From the NCBI GenBank assembly GCA_030836345.1, contig JAURQA010000259.1, positions 1 to 14,721 on the forward strand: a DNA stretch of 14,721 bases, written 5' to 3'. The translations under genes were made by a program, and so were the position numbers. Positions 1-4,895 of this stretch are shown in pieces (position 1 is the first letter of the stretch; each line of letters starts with the position of its first letter). The DNA comes from Bacteroidota bacterium (lineage in GTDB: Bacteria; Bacteroidota; Bacteroidia; NS11-12g; UBA955). A model generated the notes under the pieces. It worked only from the letters and a program-made list of their open reading frames with translations. It did not search any database and was not told the origin of the DNA.

Positions 1-325
1 AGTCAGCATAAAATTCATCCACACTCGCTTTTTCTAAAACCGGCACCCGCTCTTGCAAAATTTCTGTGACCATTTTAGAAAATTTGGTATATGTACCCGC
101 ATTTCCTTTAATCACAATAGCTTCTGGACAAAGCTGTCTTGCCATTTTCATAGGCATACCTGAGTGCACACCAAACAGCCTTGTTTCATAACTAGCAGCA
201 GAAACAACACCTCTATTTCCAGTGCCGCCCACCAGGATAGGCTGGCCAATTAAACGGCTATCCAGTAAACGTTCACAGGAGACAAAAAAGGTGTCTAAGT
301 CCATATGTAAAATTTTCCTTTCCAA
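1..325 (-). CDS. dinB: DNA polymerase IV (Y-family translesion polymerase), N-terminal part
   Basis: This is the first 108 residues of a Y-family DNA polymerase, running off the left edge. The family copies past damaged template bases with low fidelity. The visible part has the N-terminal DxD motif (MDLDTFF, Asp9 and Asp11), the GGTGNRGVVSAASYETRLFGV nucleotide-binding stretch, SGMP, the LCPEA motif, and the second catalytic motif SVDEFYAD with Asp103 and Glu104, the same numbers as in E. coli DinB. I chose a TTG start at 325-323. It gives MERKILHMDLD, which lines up with the E. coli beginning MRKIIHVDMD, and an in-frame stop lies two codons further upstream. The first ATG (304-302) would cut the protein seven residues short, inside the first beta strand. 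The gene is divergent from an S24-type repressor, and its promoter abuts the shared operator, so damage induction is inferred. The remaining two thirds (thumb and little finger) are outside the window. Confidence 0.93.
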   Translation of the reverse strand, partial: MERKILHMDLDTFFVSCERLLDSRLIGQPILVGGTGNRGVVSAASYETRLFGVHSGMPMKMARQLCPEAIVIKGNAGTYTKFSKMVTEILQERVPVLEKASVDEFYAD

Positions 326-362
326 GGCTTATTATTTATTGATATGTGTTGTAGTTAAAGGG

Positions 363-370
363 CAAATATA
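363..370 (-). promoter_or_regulatory. Predicted dinB promoter, -7 box
   Basis: The minus strand reads TATATTTG here, a full match to the Bacteroidota -7 consensus TAnnTTTG. It lies about 37 bases before the predicted TTG start of dinB. The left operator palindrome (371-383) fills the spacer immediately upstream. No good TTG -33 element is seen at 19-21 bp, so the promoter may be weak. Confidence 0.6.
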
Positions 371-405
371 TGGAATAATTCCACATTTTTGGAATTATTC
401 CATAT
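368..405. promoter_or_regulatory. Double palindromic operator between dinB and the S24 repressor
   Basis: Two 16-bp arms (368-383 and 390-405) are perfect inverted repeats around a 6-base spacer. Each arm also contains its own 13-bp palindrome: TGGAATAATTCCA at 371-383 and TGGAATTATTCCA at 390-402, each broken only at the central base. The two centres are 19 bp apart, close to two helical turns, as expected for two repressor dimers on one face of the DNA. The left site fills the dinB promoter spacer and the right site overlaps the -33 region of the repressor promoter. The likely ligand is the adjacent Cro/CI-like repressor, making this an autoregulated SOS-type operator. The symmetry is seen directly; the binding partner is inferred from position. 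Confidence 0.85.
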
Positions 406-419
406 TAAACGTATATTTG
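388..419 (+). promoter_or_regulatory. Predicted promoter of the S24 repressor gene
   Basis: A TTTG at 388-391 and TATATTTG at 412-419 are separated by exactly 20 bp, matching the Bacteroidota promoter pattern (TTG, 19-21 bp, TAnnTTTG). Only four bases (atcc) separate the -7 box from the ATG at 424, so the predicted transcription start falls at or next to the start codon. The -33 element lies at the edge of the right-hand operator palindrome, consistent with autorepression. Confidence 0.7.
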
Positions 420-423
420 ATCC

Positions 424-1161
424 ATGGAACCCTTACCCATAGAGGCCAAAAGATTAAAATCTCTTAGAGATGACTTGGGCTTAAGTCAAATAGAATTTGC
501 CGAAAAAGTAGGTTTAAAAACTACAGCAGATATCGAAAGAGGTAAAACTAGAATTACTGGATACATTGTAAAAGAATTGCTTAAACAATTCCAAATTAAC
601 CCGCTCTGGCTATATGGTGAGAGCAAGAAAAAATATTTACAGACAGACGTATTGCCTAAAATGATTTCTGTCAATGAAACAGGATCTGAGAACATTGTAC
701 TGGTTAATGAAAAAGCTGCTGCTGGCTATGGTCAGAACATAGGAGACCCTGAATATTATGGCCAATTACCTGCATTTAGTTTTCCTTTATTTGAATACAG
801 AAATGCCACATTTAGAGGGTTTCAAATTTCAGGAGATAGCATGCTTCCTTTAGTGCACCCCGGCGATTGGGTTTTGGCCAAGGCCGTATCATCCATCCAT
901 GATATTAAGGACCATCAGATATATATTATTATAGAAGCAGAAAGCATCCGATTAAAAAAGGTAGAACGCAGTAAAGACGGCAATAATCTGGCTCTTATTT
1001 CAACGAATTCCGAATACCCCCCGGTGAGCGTAAATACGAAAGATGTTTTAGAGATTTGGGAATACCACAGCAAGGTAAGTATGGGCGTAAAAGATACGGG
1101 CCACTTAACCTTAGCAAATATCTACAATGAGATTCAAGACATTAAAAAAGGAATGGGATAA
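424..1161 (+). CDS. LexA/UmuD-like self-cleaving repressor (XRE helix-turn-helix plus S24 peptidase)
   Basis: A 245-residue repressor. Residues about 9-64 form a Cro/CI-type helix-turn-helix (SQIEFAEKVGL...TTADIERGKTRIT), not the winged helix of classical LexA. Residues about 90-215 are an S24/LexA-type autoprotease. It has a likely Ala100-Gly101 cleavage bond in KAAAGYG, a nucleophile Ser139 in SGDSMLPLVHPGDWV, and a general-base lysine at 178 or 179 in RLKKVER. A 30-residue tail follows (residues 216-245). By analogy with LexA, CI and UmuD, it should bind the palindromes at 368-405, repress itself and dinB, and cleave itself when RecA filaments form on damaged DNA. That role is inferred. 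The start at 424 is forced: an in-frame TGA lies at 418-420 and no Met follows until residue 80, past the HTH. There is no room for a ribosome-binding site between the promoter and ATG. Confidence 0.88.
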   Translation: MEPLPIEAKRLKSLRDDLGLSQIEFAEKVGLKTTADIERGKTRITGYIVKELLKQFQINPLWLYGESKKKYLQTDVLPKMISVNETGSENIVLVNEKAAAGYGQNIGDPEYYGQLPAFSFPLFEYRNATFRGFQISGDSMLPLVHPGDWVLAKAVSSIHDIKDHQIYIIIEAESIRLKKVERSKDGNNLALISTNSEYPPVSVNTKDVLEIWEYHSKVSMGVKDTGHLTLANIYNEIQDIKKGMG

Positions 1162-1197: not shown

Positions 1198-2007
1198 CTA
1201 TTTATTTGATTGAATCCAAGCATCTACAGCGGCTCTTACACTTTTTGTTTTTAGCAACAAATCATTGGCTGCAGCATAGTTCAAATCCGTTTCTTCCATC
1301 ACCATTCGAGTACCTCGATCCACTAATTTATCATTGCTCAATTGCATATCAATCATTTTATTGCCTTTTACATGGCCCAATTTAATCATAAGGCTAGTGG
1401 TAATCATATTCAAAGCCAGCTTGGTGCCCGTACCTGCTTTCATTCGCGTACTTCCCCTTACAAACTCAGGGCCCGTAAGTACTTCCATAGGAAAATCAGA
1501 GGCCGCAGCAATTGCCGAATCTGAATTACACACAATACATCCTGTGCTTATTCCATTTGCTTTACACGCATTCATTGCGCCCAGCACATAAGGTGTTTTA
1601 CCTGAAGCAGAGATTCCTACAACTGTATCATTGGAATGAATCCCATGCTCTAACAATTGCTTATAACAAGCTGCTGTGTCGTCCTCTGCAAATTCCACAG
1701 CTTTACGAATAGCAGTGTCTCCTCCAGCTATAATGCCAATCACCACACCATGGTCTACGCCATAAGTAGGAGGGCATTCACTCGCGTCTACAATACCCAA
1801 ACGTCCGCTAGTACCTGAACCCACATAGAATAAGCGACCTCCCTTTTTCATTTTTAATAAAGTATCACTACAAAAACGTTCTATTTGAGGAATAGCCCGG
1901 TGCACCGCATGGGCTACAGACTGATCTAGATCATTTATTGCATTTAATAAGGCGCCCATTTTATAAGTTTCTAAATCGGTATATTTTGATTGATCTTCTG
2001 TACTCAT
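1198..2007 (-). CDS. murQ: N-acetylmuramic acid 6-phosphate etherase
   Basis: MurQ cleaves the D-lactyl ether of MurNAc-6-phosphate to give GlcNAc-6-phosphate and D-lactate, a cytoplasmic step in recycling cell-wall sugars. The 269-residue protein is a SIS-fold enzyme. It has the phosphosugar signature GSGTSGRLGIVDASECPPTYG (residues 63-83) with the catalytic Glu77, the second acidic residue Glu108 in AVEFAEDD at the spacing found in E. coli (Glu83/Glu114), GISASGKTPY at 131-140, and RGSTRMKAGTGTKLALNM at 184-201. It is somewhat shorter than the 298-residue E. coli enzyme at both ends, which I believe is usual in Bacteroidota. Its ATG overlaps the stop codon of the upstream GH3 gene (ATGA), so translation is probably coupled and both share one promoter. 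It converges on the S24 repressor gene with a 36-base gap that holds no clear terminator. Confidence 0.95.
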   Translation of the reverse strand: MSTEDQSKYTDLETYKMGALLNAINDLDQSVAHAVHRAIPQIERFCSDTLLKMKKGGRLFYVGSGTSGRLGIVDASECPPTYGVDHGVVIGIIAGGDTAIRKAVEFAEDDTAACYKQLLEHGIHSNDTVVGISASGKTPYVLGAMNACKANGISTGCIVCNSDSAIAAASDFPMEVLTGPEFVRGSTRMKAGTGTKLALNMITTSLMIKLGHVKGNKMIDMQLSNDKLVDRGTRMVMEETDLNYAAANDLLLKTKSVRAAVDAWIQSNK

Positions 2008-3548
2008 TTTCTATACTCTTTTACAAATTGGTTCCAGTCTTCATACAAAGCATCAGACAATACCCTGGGGAATTTATTTTGTGCCCCTATTTTTTCATGT
2101 TTTTCCATCCAATTAATAAAAACCTCTTCAGGCAAAATATTTACTTTTAAGTGCTTTAATGCATGTTGCCGCTCCACAGAATAGTCATCGTTTAGCTCAG
2201 AAAGCTTGGCATTCAATTGATTCTCAATTTCTATCACATCCTCCACTTTTTTATTGCATGCAATAAACCACTCATGCCCTAGCTCACCATCTTCAAATTG
2301 CCTTCCTCTAACGGTAAATTCTGTAAATGCTAGGTTCAAGTTATGAGCACACAACTGCAAAGCTTGAGTCATATTTTCGACACTCAAATGTTCCCCACAA
2401 ATGCTTAGAAAATGCTTGGTTCTCCCCGTAATTTTAATCTCACAGTTTTCCTTATGAACAAATTTGATGGTATCTCCTATAACATAACGCCAAGCTCCTC
2501 CACCCGTAGAAATAAGTATGGCATAATCCACCCCTTCCTCCACATCTGCAAGATCTATAACTTCTGCACTTTTATTTATTTCTCCATCACTGTTAAAATT
2601 AGCGGCGTTAAAAGGCACAAACTCATAATACATATTATTCCGAAAAACGAGCCGCATTCCCTGGCTGTCTATTTTGGTTTGAAAAGCAATAAACCCTTCG
2701 CTAGCCAAGTATGTCTCATAAAACCTGACCTCTTTACCCAACATGGACTCTATGCCTTTTTTATAAGGAGATAAGGCAACACCACCCCATAAATAAACAC
2801 TAAAGTTTGGCCACAGCTCATGGATATTATTCAATTGGTGTTTTTCTAAAAGTTTTTCAATTAAAATTTTAATCCAGGCAGGCACTCCAGCAATCATTAC
2901 AACATCCCATGTATGAGCCACCTCAAGCATCGCTTCCATTTTTTCATGCCAATTACTAATGGCCCGGATCTCTGGTGAAGGCTGAGAATATCTATCAAAC
3001 CATTGAGGAACATTTTGAGTAGTAATTCCACTGAGGTCCCCGCTGTATGCAGTACCATCAAACTGCAATGTAGTACTGCCTCCAACCATTAGGTAATCCT
3101 TGGTTAAAAAATCTTTGGGTATATCTGAGTTTATAATGGAAAGCATTTGCCTTCGACTTCCACGAATAATTGACTTTAACTGAACCGAACTAATTGGGAT
3201 ATACTTGCTTGACCCCTCACTAGTGCCACTGCTTAATGCAAAGTGCTTTATGCTTCCAGGCCAGGTAACATCTTTTTCACCCTTATAGGCACGCAACCAA
3301 TATGGATGCATATCTGAGTATCCCGAAATAGGAACATTGTTTCTAAACCCTTGGGCAATATTTGGTGCAATTAGGATATCATCAAAGCCATATCTACTTC
3401 CAAACTCTGTATCCTTAGCCCTAAAGACTAGCTTTTTTAATGTAGTCTCCTGCCATTTCACAGCGCGTGAAATATTAAAAGTTAAAACATCTTTAATTTT
3501 TAACCCTCGTTTAAGTTGAATCTTTCGCCCTTGCCAAGAGAGAGGCAT
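2004..3548 (-). CDS. GH3-family acyl-adenylating enzyme (acyl acid-amido synthetase-like)
   Basis: A 514-residue member of the GH3 branch of adenylate-forming enzymes. Plant members activate a carboxylic acid with ATP and join it to an amino acid. The three ATP/AMP motifs are visible: FALSSGTSEG (residues 103-112), YLASEG (280-285), and WRYVIGD (353-359); a LSICGEHLSVENM segment (381-393) precedes the C-terminal lid domain. Length and full motif set indicate an intact enzyme. The substrate in bacteria is not known to me and cannot be read from the sequence. The gene leads a two-gene operon with murQ, overlapping it by four bases. Its predicted -7 box ends four bases before the ATG, suggesting a leaderless or nearly leaderless transcript. 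The start is supported by the usual N-terminal helix seen just after it. Family assignment is firm; function is open. Confidence 0.9.
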   Translation of the reverse strand: MPLSWQGRKIQLKRGLKIKDVLTFNISRAVKWQETTLKKLVFRAKDTEFGSRYGFDDILIAPNIAQGFRNNVPISGYSDMHPYWLRAYKGEKDVTWPGSIKHFALSSGTSEGSSKYIPISSVQLKSIIRGSRRQMLSIINSDIPKDFLTKDYLMVGGSTTLQFDGTAYSGDLSGITTQNVPQWFDRYSQPSPEIRAISNWHEKMEAMLEVAHTWDVVMIAGVPAWIKILIEKLLEKHQLNNIHELWPNFSVYLWGGVALSPYKKGIESMLGKEVRFYETYLASEGFIAFQTKIDSQGMRLVFRNNMYYEFVPFNAANFNSDGEINKSAEVIDLADVEEGVDYAILISTGGGAWRYVIGDTIKFVHKENCEIKITGRTKHFLSICGEHLSVENMTQALQLCAHNLNLAFTEFTVRGRQFEDGELGHEWFIACNKKVEDVIEIENQLNAKLSELNDDYSVERQHALKHLKVNILPEEVFINWMEKHEKIGAQNKFPRVLSDALYEDWNQFVKEYRK

Positions 3549-3552
3549 TAGA

Positions 3553-3560
3553 CAAAAGTA
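3553..3560 (-). promoter_or_regulatory. Predicted -7 box of the GH3-murQ operon
   Basis: The minus strand reads TACTTTTG, a match to TAnnTTTG, with only four bases (tcta) before the GH3 start codon. No TTG element is visible at the expected 19-21 bp upstream, so the call rests on the -7 box and its position. Confidence 0.5.
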
Positions 3561-3607
3561 AACAAATTTTATCCGTTACGTGCGTTTGAAATAATCATTT
3601 TAGTGGG

Positions 3608-3622
3608 ATTAGTGTCACTAAT
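3608..3622. promoter_or_regulatory. 15-bp perfect palindrome in a divergent promoter region, candidate operator
   Basis: ATTAGTG and CACTAAT are perfect inverted repeats around a single T. The site sits five bases upstream of the plus-strand TACTTTTG box, where the promoter spacer lies, and between two divergent transcription units. A regulator-binding role is inferred only from symmetry and position; no regulator gene is adjacent. Confidence 0.45.
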
Positions 3623-3627
3623 TGGCC

Positions 3628-3635
3628 TACTTTTG
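3628..3635 (+). promoter_or_regulatory. Predicted -7 box of the hypothetical gene / isomerase pair
   Basis: TACTTTTG matches TAnnTTTG and lies 11 bases before the ATG at 3647, predicting a leader of only a few bases. No TTG is seen 19-21 bp upstream; that region is occupied by the palindrome at 3608-3622. Confidence 0.5.
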
Positions 3636-3646
3636 CATACCTAAAA

Positions 3647-4018
3647 ATGTCTGAATCTCCAATAAGTTTAACCAAAGAATTAACTGTCAAGTGGTTCGCT
3701 TTACTCCAGTTTATTGAAGAAAACTTCCAGAAAAAACCGGATGTAAATGCAATTTTATTTTTGGTAGGAATAAGAGAAGCAGGCATCATTCCTGAAAAAA
3801 AGCTGTCCAAAGAGCAAAAAATTTATTTAATGCACATCGCTAACTGTAAAATTCTTTCTTACTCTGGCTACTACAAGCAGGTTGGATTTAATGAAGATGG
3901 TTGGCCCATATGGGAGAATGACAAAAAACTACCCAACATGGACCTATTTGAACAGGAGGTTCTCCTTAAACAACACATAATTGAATACTTTGAAAATGAA
4001 GAAATTACCGTTTTATAA
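3647..4018 (+). CDS. Conserved hypothetical protein of Bacteroidota type
   Basis: A 123-residue soluble protein without signal peptide or membrane segment. It looks like a small all-alpha or mixed protein: an N-terminal helix (about 8-28), a hydrophobic stretch NAILFLVGIREAG (34-46), a helix rich in charged residues followed by LMHIANCKILSYSGYYKQVGFNEDGWPIWE (61-90), and a C-terminal acidic helix. The HxxxC arrangement (His63, Cys67) and the aromatic GYY and DGWP motifs resemble a widespread Bacteroidota family of unknown function that I recall from memory, so I regard it as a real gene. It has its own TACTTTTG box upstream and its end overlaps the downstream lipoprotein isomerase gene, implying one transcript. 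I do not recognise a function. Confidence 0.8.
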   Translation: MSESPISLTKELTVKWFALLQFIEENFQKKPDVNAILFLVGIREAGIIPEKKLSKEQKIYLMHIANCKILSYSGYYKQVGFNEDGWPIWENDKKLPNMDLFEQEVLLKQHIIEYFENEEITVL

Positions 4019-4895
4019 TTGCCTTTTTATTGCGCTTTTTCTATGCTCCTGTGGAGGAGAAAGTGAGAATACAGCCAAAGAAGAACAAAGTCTACCAGTC
4101 ATAGAAACAGGTGAAAAGTCCTATGCTGCAATGACCGATAGCTTGCGCCTAGACTCCTTAACAAAGGTTAAAATAGAAACCTCTGTTGGAGAATTAGTTG
4201 TGGCACTTTTCGATGAAACCCCCTTACACAAGGAGAATTTTCTAAAATTAACCCGAAGTAACTTTTATAATAATACGCTGTTTCACCGCGTAATTAAACA
4301 ATTTATGGCTCAAGGTGGAGATCCTAATTCAAAAAACGCTAATCCAGGTCAGGCCCTAGGCGATGGAGGCCCAGGATACACCATTCCAAAAGAATTCAAT
4401 AATAAGCTATATCATATAAAAGGAGCCTTAGCTGCAGCCCGTAGGTCCGATCAAATCAACCCATTAAAAGAAAGCTCAGGAAGTCAATTCTATATAGTGA
4501 CCGGAAGTAAAGTTCAAAACGACTTTTGGGAAAACATGGCTATGCAGAATTCTTACGAGATTTTCTTTACGAACCCTAAGAATAATGAATACAATTTAAG
4601 AGCCGAAGCCTATCGTCAAAATCAAGACCAAGCGGGGTTGCAAGTGCTAGCAGACGAGGTTGAATCCTTAACTGCATCCCTTAGGGATAGTTTAATGAAC
4701 TCCCTGACTCCAGAATACAAAAAGATGTACGCTACTCATGGTGGGACTCCTGCTTTGGATGGGAAATACACCGTTTTTGGCTACCTCGTTTCCGGTTACC
4801 AGACTTTAGCCACTATAGAAAACAATCCTACGGCACCTGGCGACAGACCCATAGAAGATATCAAAATCATAAAATGCAGTGTTCTAAACGATTGA
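3996..4895 (+). CDS. Cyclophilin-type peptidyl-prolyl isomerase, lipoprotein
   Basis: This enzyme should speed cis-trans isomerisation of proline bonds in exported proteins, anchored by lipid on the periplasmic side. The preferred start at 3996 gives MKKLPFYNCLFIALFLCSCGG, a lipoprotein signal with lipidated Cys19; an upstream in-frame ATG at 3981 would add five residues. Cyclophilin residues are clear: FHRVIKQFMAQGGD (96-109) carries the catalytic Arg and Phe/Gln pair, followed by GALAAARR (143-150) and SGSQFYIVTG (161-170). About 75 residues with charged, helical character are inserted before the last part of the fold, GGTPALDGKYTVFGYLVSG (249-267). The position of human CypA Trp121 is Ala here, as in bacterial cyclophilins of low cyclosporin sensitivity. 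The gene overlaps the upstream hypothetical gene by 23 bases. Confidence 0.92.
   Translation: MKKLPFYNCLFIALFLCSCGGESENTAKEEQSLPVIETGEKSYAAMTDSLRLDSLTKVKIETSVGELVVALFDETPLHKENFLKLTRSNFYNNTLFHRVIKQFMAQGGDPNSKNANPGQALGDGGPGYTIPKEFNNKLYHIKGALAAARRSDQINPLKESSGSQFYIVTGSKVQNDFWENMAMQNSYEIFFTNPKNNEYNLRAEAYRQNQDQAGLQVLADEVESLTASLRDSLMNSLTPEYKKMYATHGGTPALDGKYTVFGYLVSGYQTLATIENNPTAPGDRPIEDIKIIKCSVLND

Follow-up and report, generated by a model that had tools for sequence, protein, structure and literature searches.

A divergent dinB unit with a phage-type S24 repressor and tandem GGA-N5-TCC operators, very probably of the Bacteroidota non-canonical LexA family

Introduction

What holds a translesion polymerase in check when the regulator that faces it has the DNA-binding domain of a phage repressor? 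The question is raised by a 14,721-bp stretch of Bacteroidota DNA (GCA_030836345.1, contig JAURQA010000259.1), called the window here, at one end of which a gene for a Y-family polymerase and a gene for a repressor diverge. The original prediction saw in this pair a self-contained switch, possibly a stand-in for LexA, by which the repressor would control both itself and the polymerase.

Such repressors have been described before. A 2021 paper (PMC8565304) reports, in Bacteroidetes, S24 repressors with a phage-type HTH whose operators read GGA-N5-TCC or CTAA-N5-TTAG, and which regulate themselves and dinB, often along with a gene for the alpha subunit of DNA polymerase III. For relatives treated there, gel shifts showed binding and RT-qPCR showed induction after mitomycin C treatment, and the GGA-N5-TCC group is placed primarily in Flavobacteriaceae. 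We assign the locus, with little doubt, to the GGA-N5-TCC group of this non-canonical LexA family, as a divergent unit with dinB. Its repressor is a new example of a phage-type repressor replacing LexA in Bacteroidota, in a family and with an operator already on record; the main additions made here are a split form of the unit in the closest relative and an apparently minimal regulon.

Results

The window is an entire contig (G000:C224) of a draft genome, G000, that comprises 1.77 Mb in 300 contigs and is 66.9% complete. The 5' part of dinB, encoding Y-family DNA polymerase IV, occupies positions 2 to 325 on the minus strand (Pfam IMS, 4.9e-29; TTG start at 325); the gene runs off the start of the contig, and the window keeps this 5' portion alone, 100 of whose 107 residues are identical in the dinB product of G012, the closest relative (94% complete, three contigs). 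Across a divergent gap of 98 bp follows the repressor gene (424 to 1161, plus strand), encoding a protein of 245 aa. Both the polymerase start and the CI-like HTH joined to an S24 domain with its Ser/Lys motifs had been read correctly in the original prediction.

The repressor combines an HTH_3 domain (PF01381; residues 11-63, 1.5e-7, above the cut-off) with a Peptidase_S24 domain (residues 126-211, 1.8e-11) and a conserved C-terminal tail, common to the repressors in an alignment of 37 rows, namely the window protein, its G012 counterpart and 35 proteins chosen from 80 named loci; an extra C-terminal helix is noted for the family in PMC8565304. Ala98-Ala99-Ala100-Gly101, Ser139 and Lys178 are invariant in 37 of 37 rows. 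The domains and these residues are established, and from position and conservation Ala100-Gly101, numbered as first proposed, is the presumed cleavage site and Ser139/Lys178 the presumed catalytic dyad. The DNA-binding domain is indeed unlike that of canonical LexA, as had been claimed: the winged-helix LexA_DNA_bind domain (PF01726) is absent from the Pfam matches of the window protein, which scores 18.0 bits with the NCBIfam lexA model (cut-off 110.95) and 22.6 bits with the UmuD model (cut-off 110). A PDB profile search with the family alignment returned neither LexA nor another S24 structure at E <= 0.01, yielding a spurious lectin-repeat match and two HTH proteins; a search with the single repressor sequence gave weak LexA and UmuD matches (0.13-0.69), the Pfam S24 match being clear nonetheless.

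Between the two genes lie two perfect palindromes, operator 1 (TGGAATAATTCCA, 371-383) and operator 2 (TGGAATTATTCCA, 390-402), 19 bp apart and both of the GGA-N5-TCC form named in PMC8565304. Judged by its letters, TGGAATnATTCCA is a GGA-N5-TCC site, and TGGAATNATTCCA is matched exactly at both positions, which are its sole occurrences in the whole 1.77-Mb assembly, where the backwards pattern has none. When the window was simulated with an order-1 Markov model, exact palindrome matches arose in 0 of 300 runs; with up to two mismatches the result is less striking, at four matches against 1.25 expected and with 6 of 200 shuffles reaching four.

The outward-facing boxes that the original prediction placed around the double palindrome are likewise present. 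Two TATATTTG boxes, outside both palindromes and each pointing outwards, fit TAnnTTTG, the -7 consensus of Bacteroidetes: one at 363-370 on the minus strand, the presumed dinB promoter, adjoins operator 1, and the other at 412-419 on the plus strand, the presumed repressor promoter, lies at -12, as does TACTTTTG in G012. By eye, and going by the -33 consensus, TTTG at 388-391 (plus strand), 20 nt ahead of the second box and overlapping the start of operator 2, could serve the repressor promoter as its -33 element; no comparable upstream box was seen for dinB.

Is this arrangement peculiar to the window? When named genomes were scanned with the aligned window and G012 proteins, 383 stretches of bacterial contigs proved to encode a relative of the repressor, and the 80 best were retained. 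In the 250 bp ahead of the repressor gene, 78 of these 80 have GGA-N5-TCC, whose background frequency elsewhere in the same loci is 0.06 per 250 bp, and none has CTAA-N5-TTAG; in the other two, L069 and L136, GGA-N5-TCC stands farther upstream, at about 650-740 bp, and in L069 it is found next to dinB, with an intervening ORF. The operators of the window are thus established in position and conservation, but they number two, whereas at least three lie in this interval in 75 of the 80 loci (three in 65, four in nine, five in one), the remainder having two (one locus), one (two loci, among them L068, whose frame was miscalled at 57 aa) or none (two loci). By raw count, TAnnTTTG follows the last operator within 0-25 nt in 75 of 80, at 8 nt in 62 and at 10 nt, the distance in the window, in seven.

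The placement of the protein is equally established. A tree of 35 proteins, in which some long branches were flagged, joins the window protein with 17 GGA-labelled rows, from G012 and 16 of the 80 named loci, in a clade supported at 100/100; the published reference proteins are not among the rows, and 17 further S24 proteins chosen from its order lie outside the clade. Its neighbours are G012, then a Saprospiraceae MAG, then another MAG, and it groups outside the Flavobacteriaceae rows; the GGA-N5-TCC group extends to Dyadobacter and the Saprospiraceae MAG, besides Flavobacteriaceae. Within the order its presence is patchy, with a close homologue in two of 57 genomes, G000 and G012; in G001, of the same genus and 70% complete, we found the other S24 type only and no IMS match. 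The double operator, at one mismatch or fewer, matches five of 108 genomes of the order, clearly in G000 and G012 and by a single one-mismatch match each in G034, G051 and G066, and a control pattern matches once, in G045.

The phage-type N-terminal domain might be taken to mean that the repressor is the CI protein of a prophage or defective phage that sits beside dinB by chance and controls phage genes rather than an SOS gene. Phage proteins do resemble it, with 41 matching records, all below 60% identity and the best among the 20 matches listed at 29.4%. Yet the neighbours with Pfam matches in the window (GKRP/MurQ-type SIS, GH3, cyclophilin, RimP, NusA, IF-2, a short-chain dehydrogenase, UbiA, an MR_MLE enzyme and an E1 dehydrogenase) are of housekeeping or metabolic kinds, the relatives come from 383 bacterial contig stretches, and adjacency to dinB recurs among them. 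We therefore rejected a prophage repressor on the strength of neighbours and homologues, and give this reading next to no credence. The ORF at 3647-4018 of the window has no Pfam match.

How firmly is dinB tied to the repressor? A divergent dinB at 126-139 bp is found in 13 of the 80 named loci (12 from Dyadobacter, and L084, another MAG), and in L069, which reaches a contig end, dinB is divergent at 776 bp. For 66 of the 80, dinB was not found in the locus DNA, which, like the lack of a clear -33 box on the dinB side of the window, would suit a repressor that regulates only itself, next to a constitutive dinB that is divergent by chance. What makes this very unlikely is that dinB carries operators of its own where it stands apart, in G012, some 3 kb off and with the pair next to TAGCTTTG, and that the dinB of Maribacter thermophilus has an operator pair as well. 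Control of dinB by the window repressor is most likely.

The G012 arrangement deserves a closer look. About 3.1 kb of DNA, holding the gene of a Crp-like regulator and rhodanese-type genes, separates its dinB from its repressor. Before dinB lie TGGAATAATTCCT and TGGAATTATTCCA, 19 bp apart, the adjacent TAGCTTTG occupying the same place as the dinB box of the window; before the repressor lie TGGATTAATTCCA and TGGATATATTCCA, again 19 bp apart, with TACTTTTG at the promoter position given above. The 19-bp operator spacing of the window recurs twice in this genome. The divergent form also occurs in Dyadobacter and L084, and for this reason the separation in G012 is probably derived. The G012 dinB (L065, 520-1735) reads as two overlapping frames, an IMS part and an IMS_C part, which may reflect a frameshift or an assembly error.

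The dinB-repressor pair stands as first proposed, but that the switch has just two genes is less certain, since dinB is cut by the contig end and is followed by a dnaE-type gene in G012 as well as in L084 and three Dyadobacter loci. In G012 the piece after dinB has a PHP domain and a start similar to dnaE-type genes; in Dyadobacter L071, L123 and L144 and in L084, the four loci for which ORFs were listed, the dnaE-type gene follows dinB on the same strand, in L084 with an SRAP gene in between. The dnaE-type genes of these four loci encode PHP and DNA_pol3_alpha domains. DnaE-like matches in G000 lie on two contigs, C242 (32% identity) and C270 (35% over 63 residues); the former (L197, 219-3323) is a DnaE-type protein of 1034 aa that shares 32% identity with the beginning of the dinB-linked DnaE of G012, and the first 218 bp of that contig, ahead of this ORF, showed no dinB tail by eye.

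If the repressor stands in for LexA, how far does its control reach? The exact operator TGGAATNATTCCA, for which a genome search had been proposed, has no further copy in G000, and a strict pattern, TGGAWWWWWTCCW, occurs at 19 distinct places in G000 and 18 in G012. Beyond the operators already described, all of these lie inside ORFs (17 of 17 in G000 and 14 of 14 in G012; ORFs called mechanically at 70 aa or more, the shortest that holds a site being 89 aa), for which reason the regulon looks limited to the repressor and dinB. Of the 240 sites ahead of the named homologues, the strict pattern catches 205, and weaker ones may therefore escape it.

In Flavobacteriaceae, repressors of this kind head a wider SOS regulon (recA, SRAP, splB and others), and the window repressor could likewise be a full replacement of LexA rather than a local switch. 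The published regulon (PMC8565304) is matched by Maribacter thermophilus, reached through L092, where three further tandem pairs, at 19 bp, stand before dinB, a radical-SAM gene and SRAP. The strict pattern also outnumbers its reversed control, with 16 forward and 10 reverse matches in G000 against 5 and 4 for the control, and 16 and 12 in G012 against 4 and 6, an excess for which codon use is one possible cause. Set against this are the confinement of all other strict sites to ORFs, in G000 (67% complete) as in G012, and the recA-radC gap of G000, in which no GGA-N5-TCC was found; one such site lies inside the ORF on the other side of recA. We consider the wider regulon unlikely here, if far from negligible. 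In Maribacter the strict pattern overall is not enriched over the reversed one (forward 14 against 24, reverse 18 against 19), and the tandem pairs alone stand out; the Dyadobacter control genome, reached through L123, has two further tandem pairs. Gene context in these control genomes was taken from tandem pairs only.

A canonical LexA elsewhere in the genome, which the original prediction had suggested looking for, was not found: LexA_DNA_bind has no match in G000 or in G012, its absence from G000 being weak because that genome is only 67% complete. Weak matches occur in five of 57 relatives, all of one genus of the second family and one of them just above the cut-off, and the model also matches 10 of 14 control genomes, archaea included. 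A RecA gene is present in G000.

Discussion

These results favour the reading of the repressor as a CI-type stand-in for LexA, a reading supported by the split of the unit in G012 and by the absence of other intergenic strict sites. As a self-contained regulator of itself and of dinB, the unit proposed originally is still what the sequence best suggests; its novelty has not survived, and a new operator or a new SOS system was rejected, GGA-N5-TCC and the family being already described in PMC8565304.

How might the unit work? Repressor dimers would sit on both operators. Operator 1 abuts the -7 box of dinB, operator 2 would cover the region upstream of the -7 box of the repressor, and from these positions binding is expected to hold both promoters down. 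Upon DNA damage, RecA filaments would stimulate the S24 domain to cut itself between Ala100 and Gly101 by way of Ser139 and Lys178; cleavage would then open both promoters, allowing the translesion polymerase to be made, and newly made repressor would restore repression. For the window repressor we infer these steps, from binding and repression to cleavage provoked by RecA and induction upon damage, from studied relatives and from what is established about S24 regulators.

The closest described counterparts include WP_075324850.1 of S. agarivorans, which by its description in PMC8565304 shares the CI-type HTH_3 and S24 domains, the Ala-Gly and Ser-Lys residues and the GGA-N5-TCC operator, and whose system is also alike in its inferred autoregulation and in having dinB as main target, often with dnaE. 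The window differs in that its two operators are common to a divergent dinB and in an apparently smaller regulon, and so adds a divergent repressor-dinB unit to the described family. The non-canonical LexA of Elizabethkingia anophelis likewise faces away from an error-prone polymerase, both genes being induced there by mitomycin C, but its operator is TTAC-AAATT-GTAA and it belongs to another group of the family (PMC8565304). HdiR of Lactococcus and UmuDAb of Acinetobacter are S24 regulators with a minimal SOS regulon around error-prone polymerases; their origins, however, are independent, UmuDAb deriving from UmuD (PMC8565304). In Francisella a phage S24 repressor, FddR, has likewise been co-opted, and some of the self-contained divergent units to which it belongs include dinB, but in the tree of PMC13148647 it lies in a separate S24 clade with lambdoid phage repressors, and its host is another.

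The same work proposed in 2026, for Francisella, that divergent units complete in themselves are the starting points from which SOS networks grow (PMC13148647), and the G012 split, with an operator pair on each half, bears on this proposal. We tentatively suggest, as one joint reading that we hold at somewhat less than even chances, that the non-canonical LexA network of this lineage is a single module of repressor, dinB and perhaps its dnaE on one tandem operator pair, and that G012 shows the module broken in two. If this is true, G012, with a full 19-bp tandem pair on each half, would be a snapshot of the passage from a divergent unit to a dispersed regulon. The patchy presence in the order (two of 57 genomes) would also allow the module to move as a unit.

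Other S24 regulators of the order show further variety. G000 itself encodes a second HTH-S24 regulator (L066, contig C110, about 1873-4052; 272 aa, 34% identical over the S24 part) directly behind an exonuclease with a GIY-YIG domain, both gene kinds being named as regulated in PMC8565304. This protein could share work with the window repressor; neither a GGA nor a CTAA dyad was seen before its frame. Among 30 dinB loci from relatives (L035-L064), none had CTAA-N5-TTAG within 200 bp or a TGGA-N5-TCCA dyad. At L045, L046, L047 and L052 (G047, G044, G050 and G042), S24 repressors of the same order have dinB on the opposite strand upstream and two tandem TGTTAT-N5-ATAACA palindromes, 23 bp apart and unlike both published motifs, possibly a diverged operator; all palindromes given here before other S24 and dinB genes come from a simple dyad search without a significance test. 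At L026 (G032:C41), in the window's own family, an S24 repressor divergent from dinB has a CTAA-N5-TTAG site, CTAAATATTTTAG, at -14 of its start, so that in that family dinB may be accompanied by operators of more than one type.
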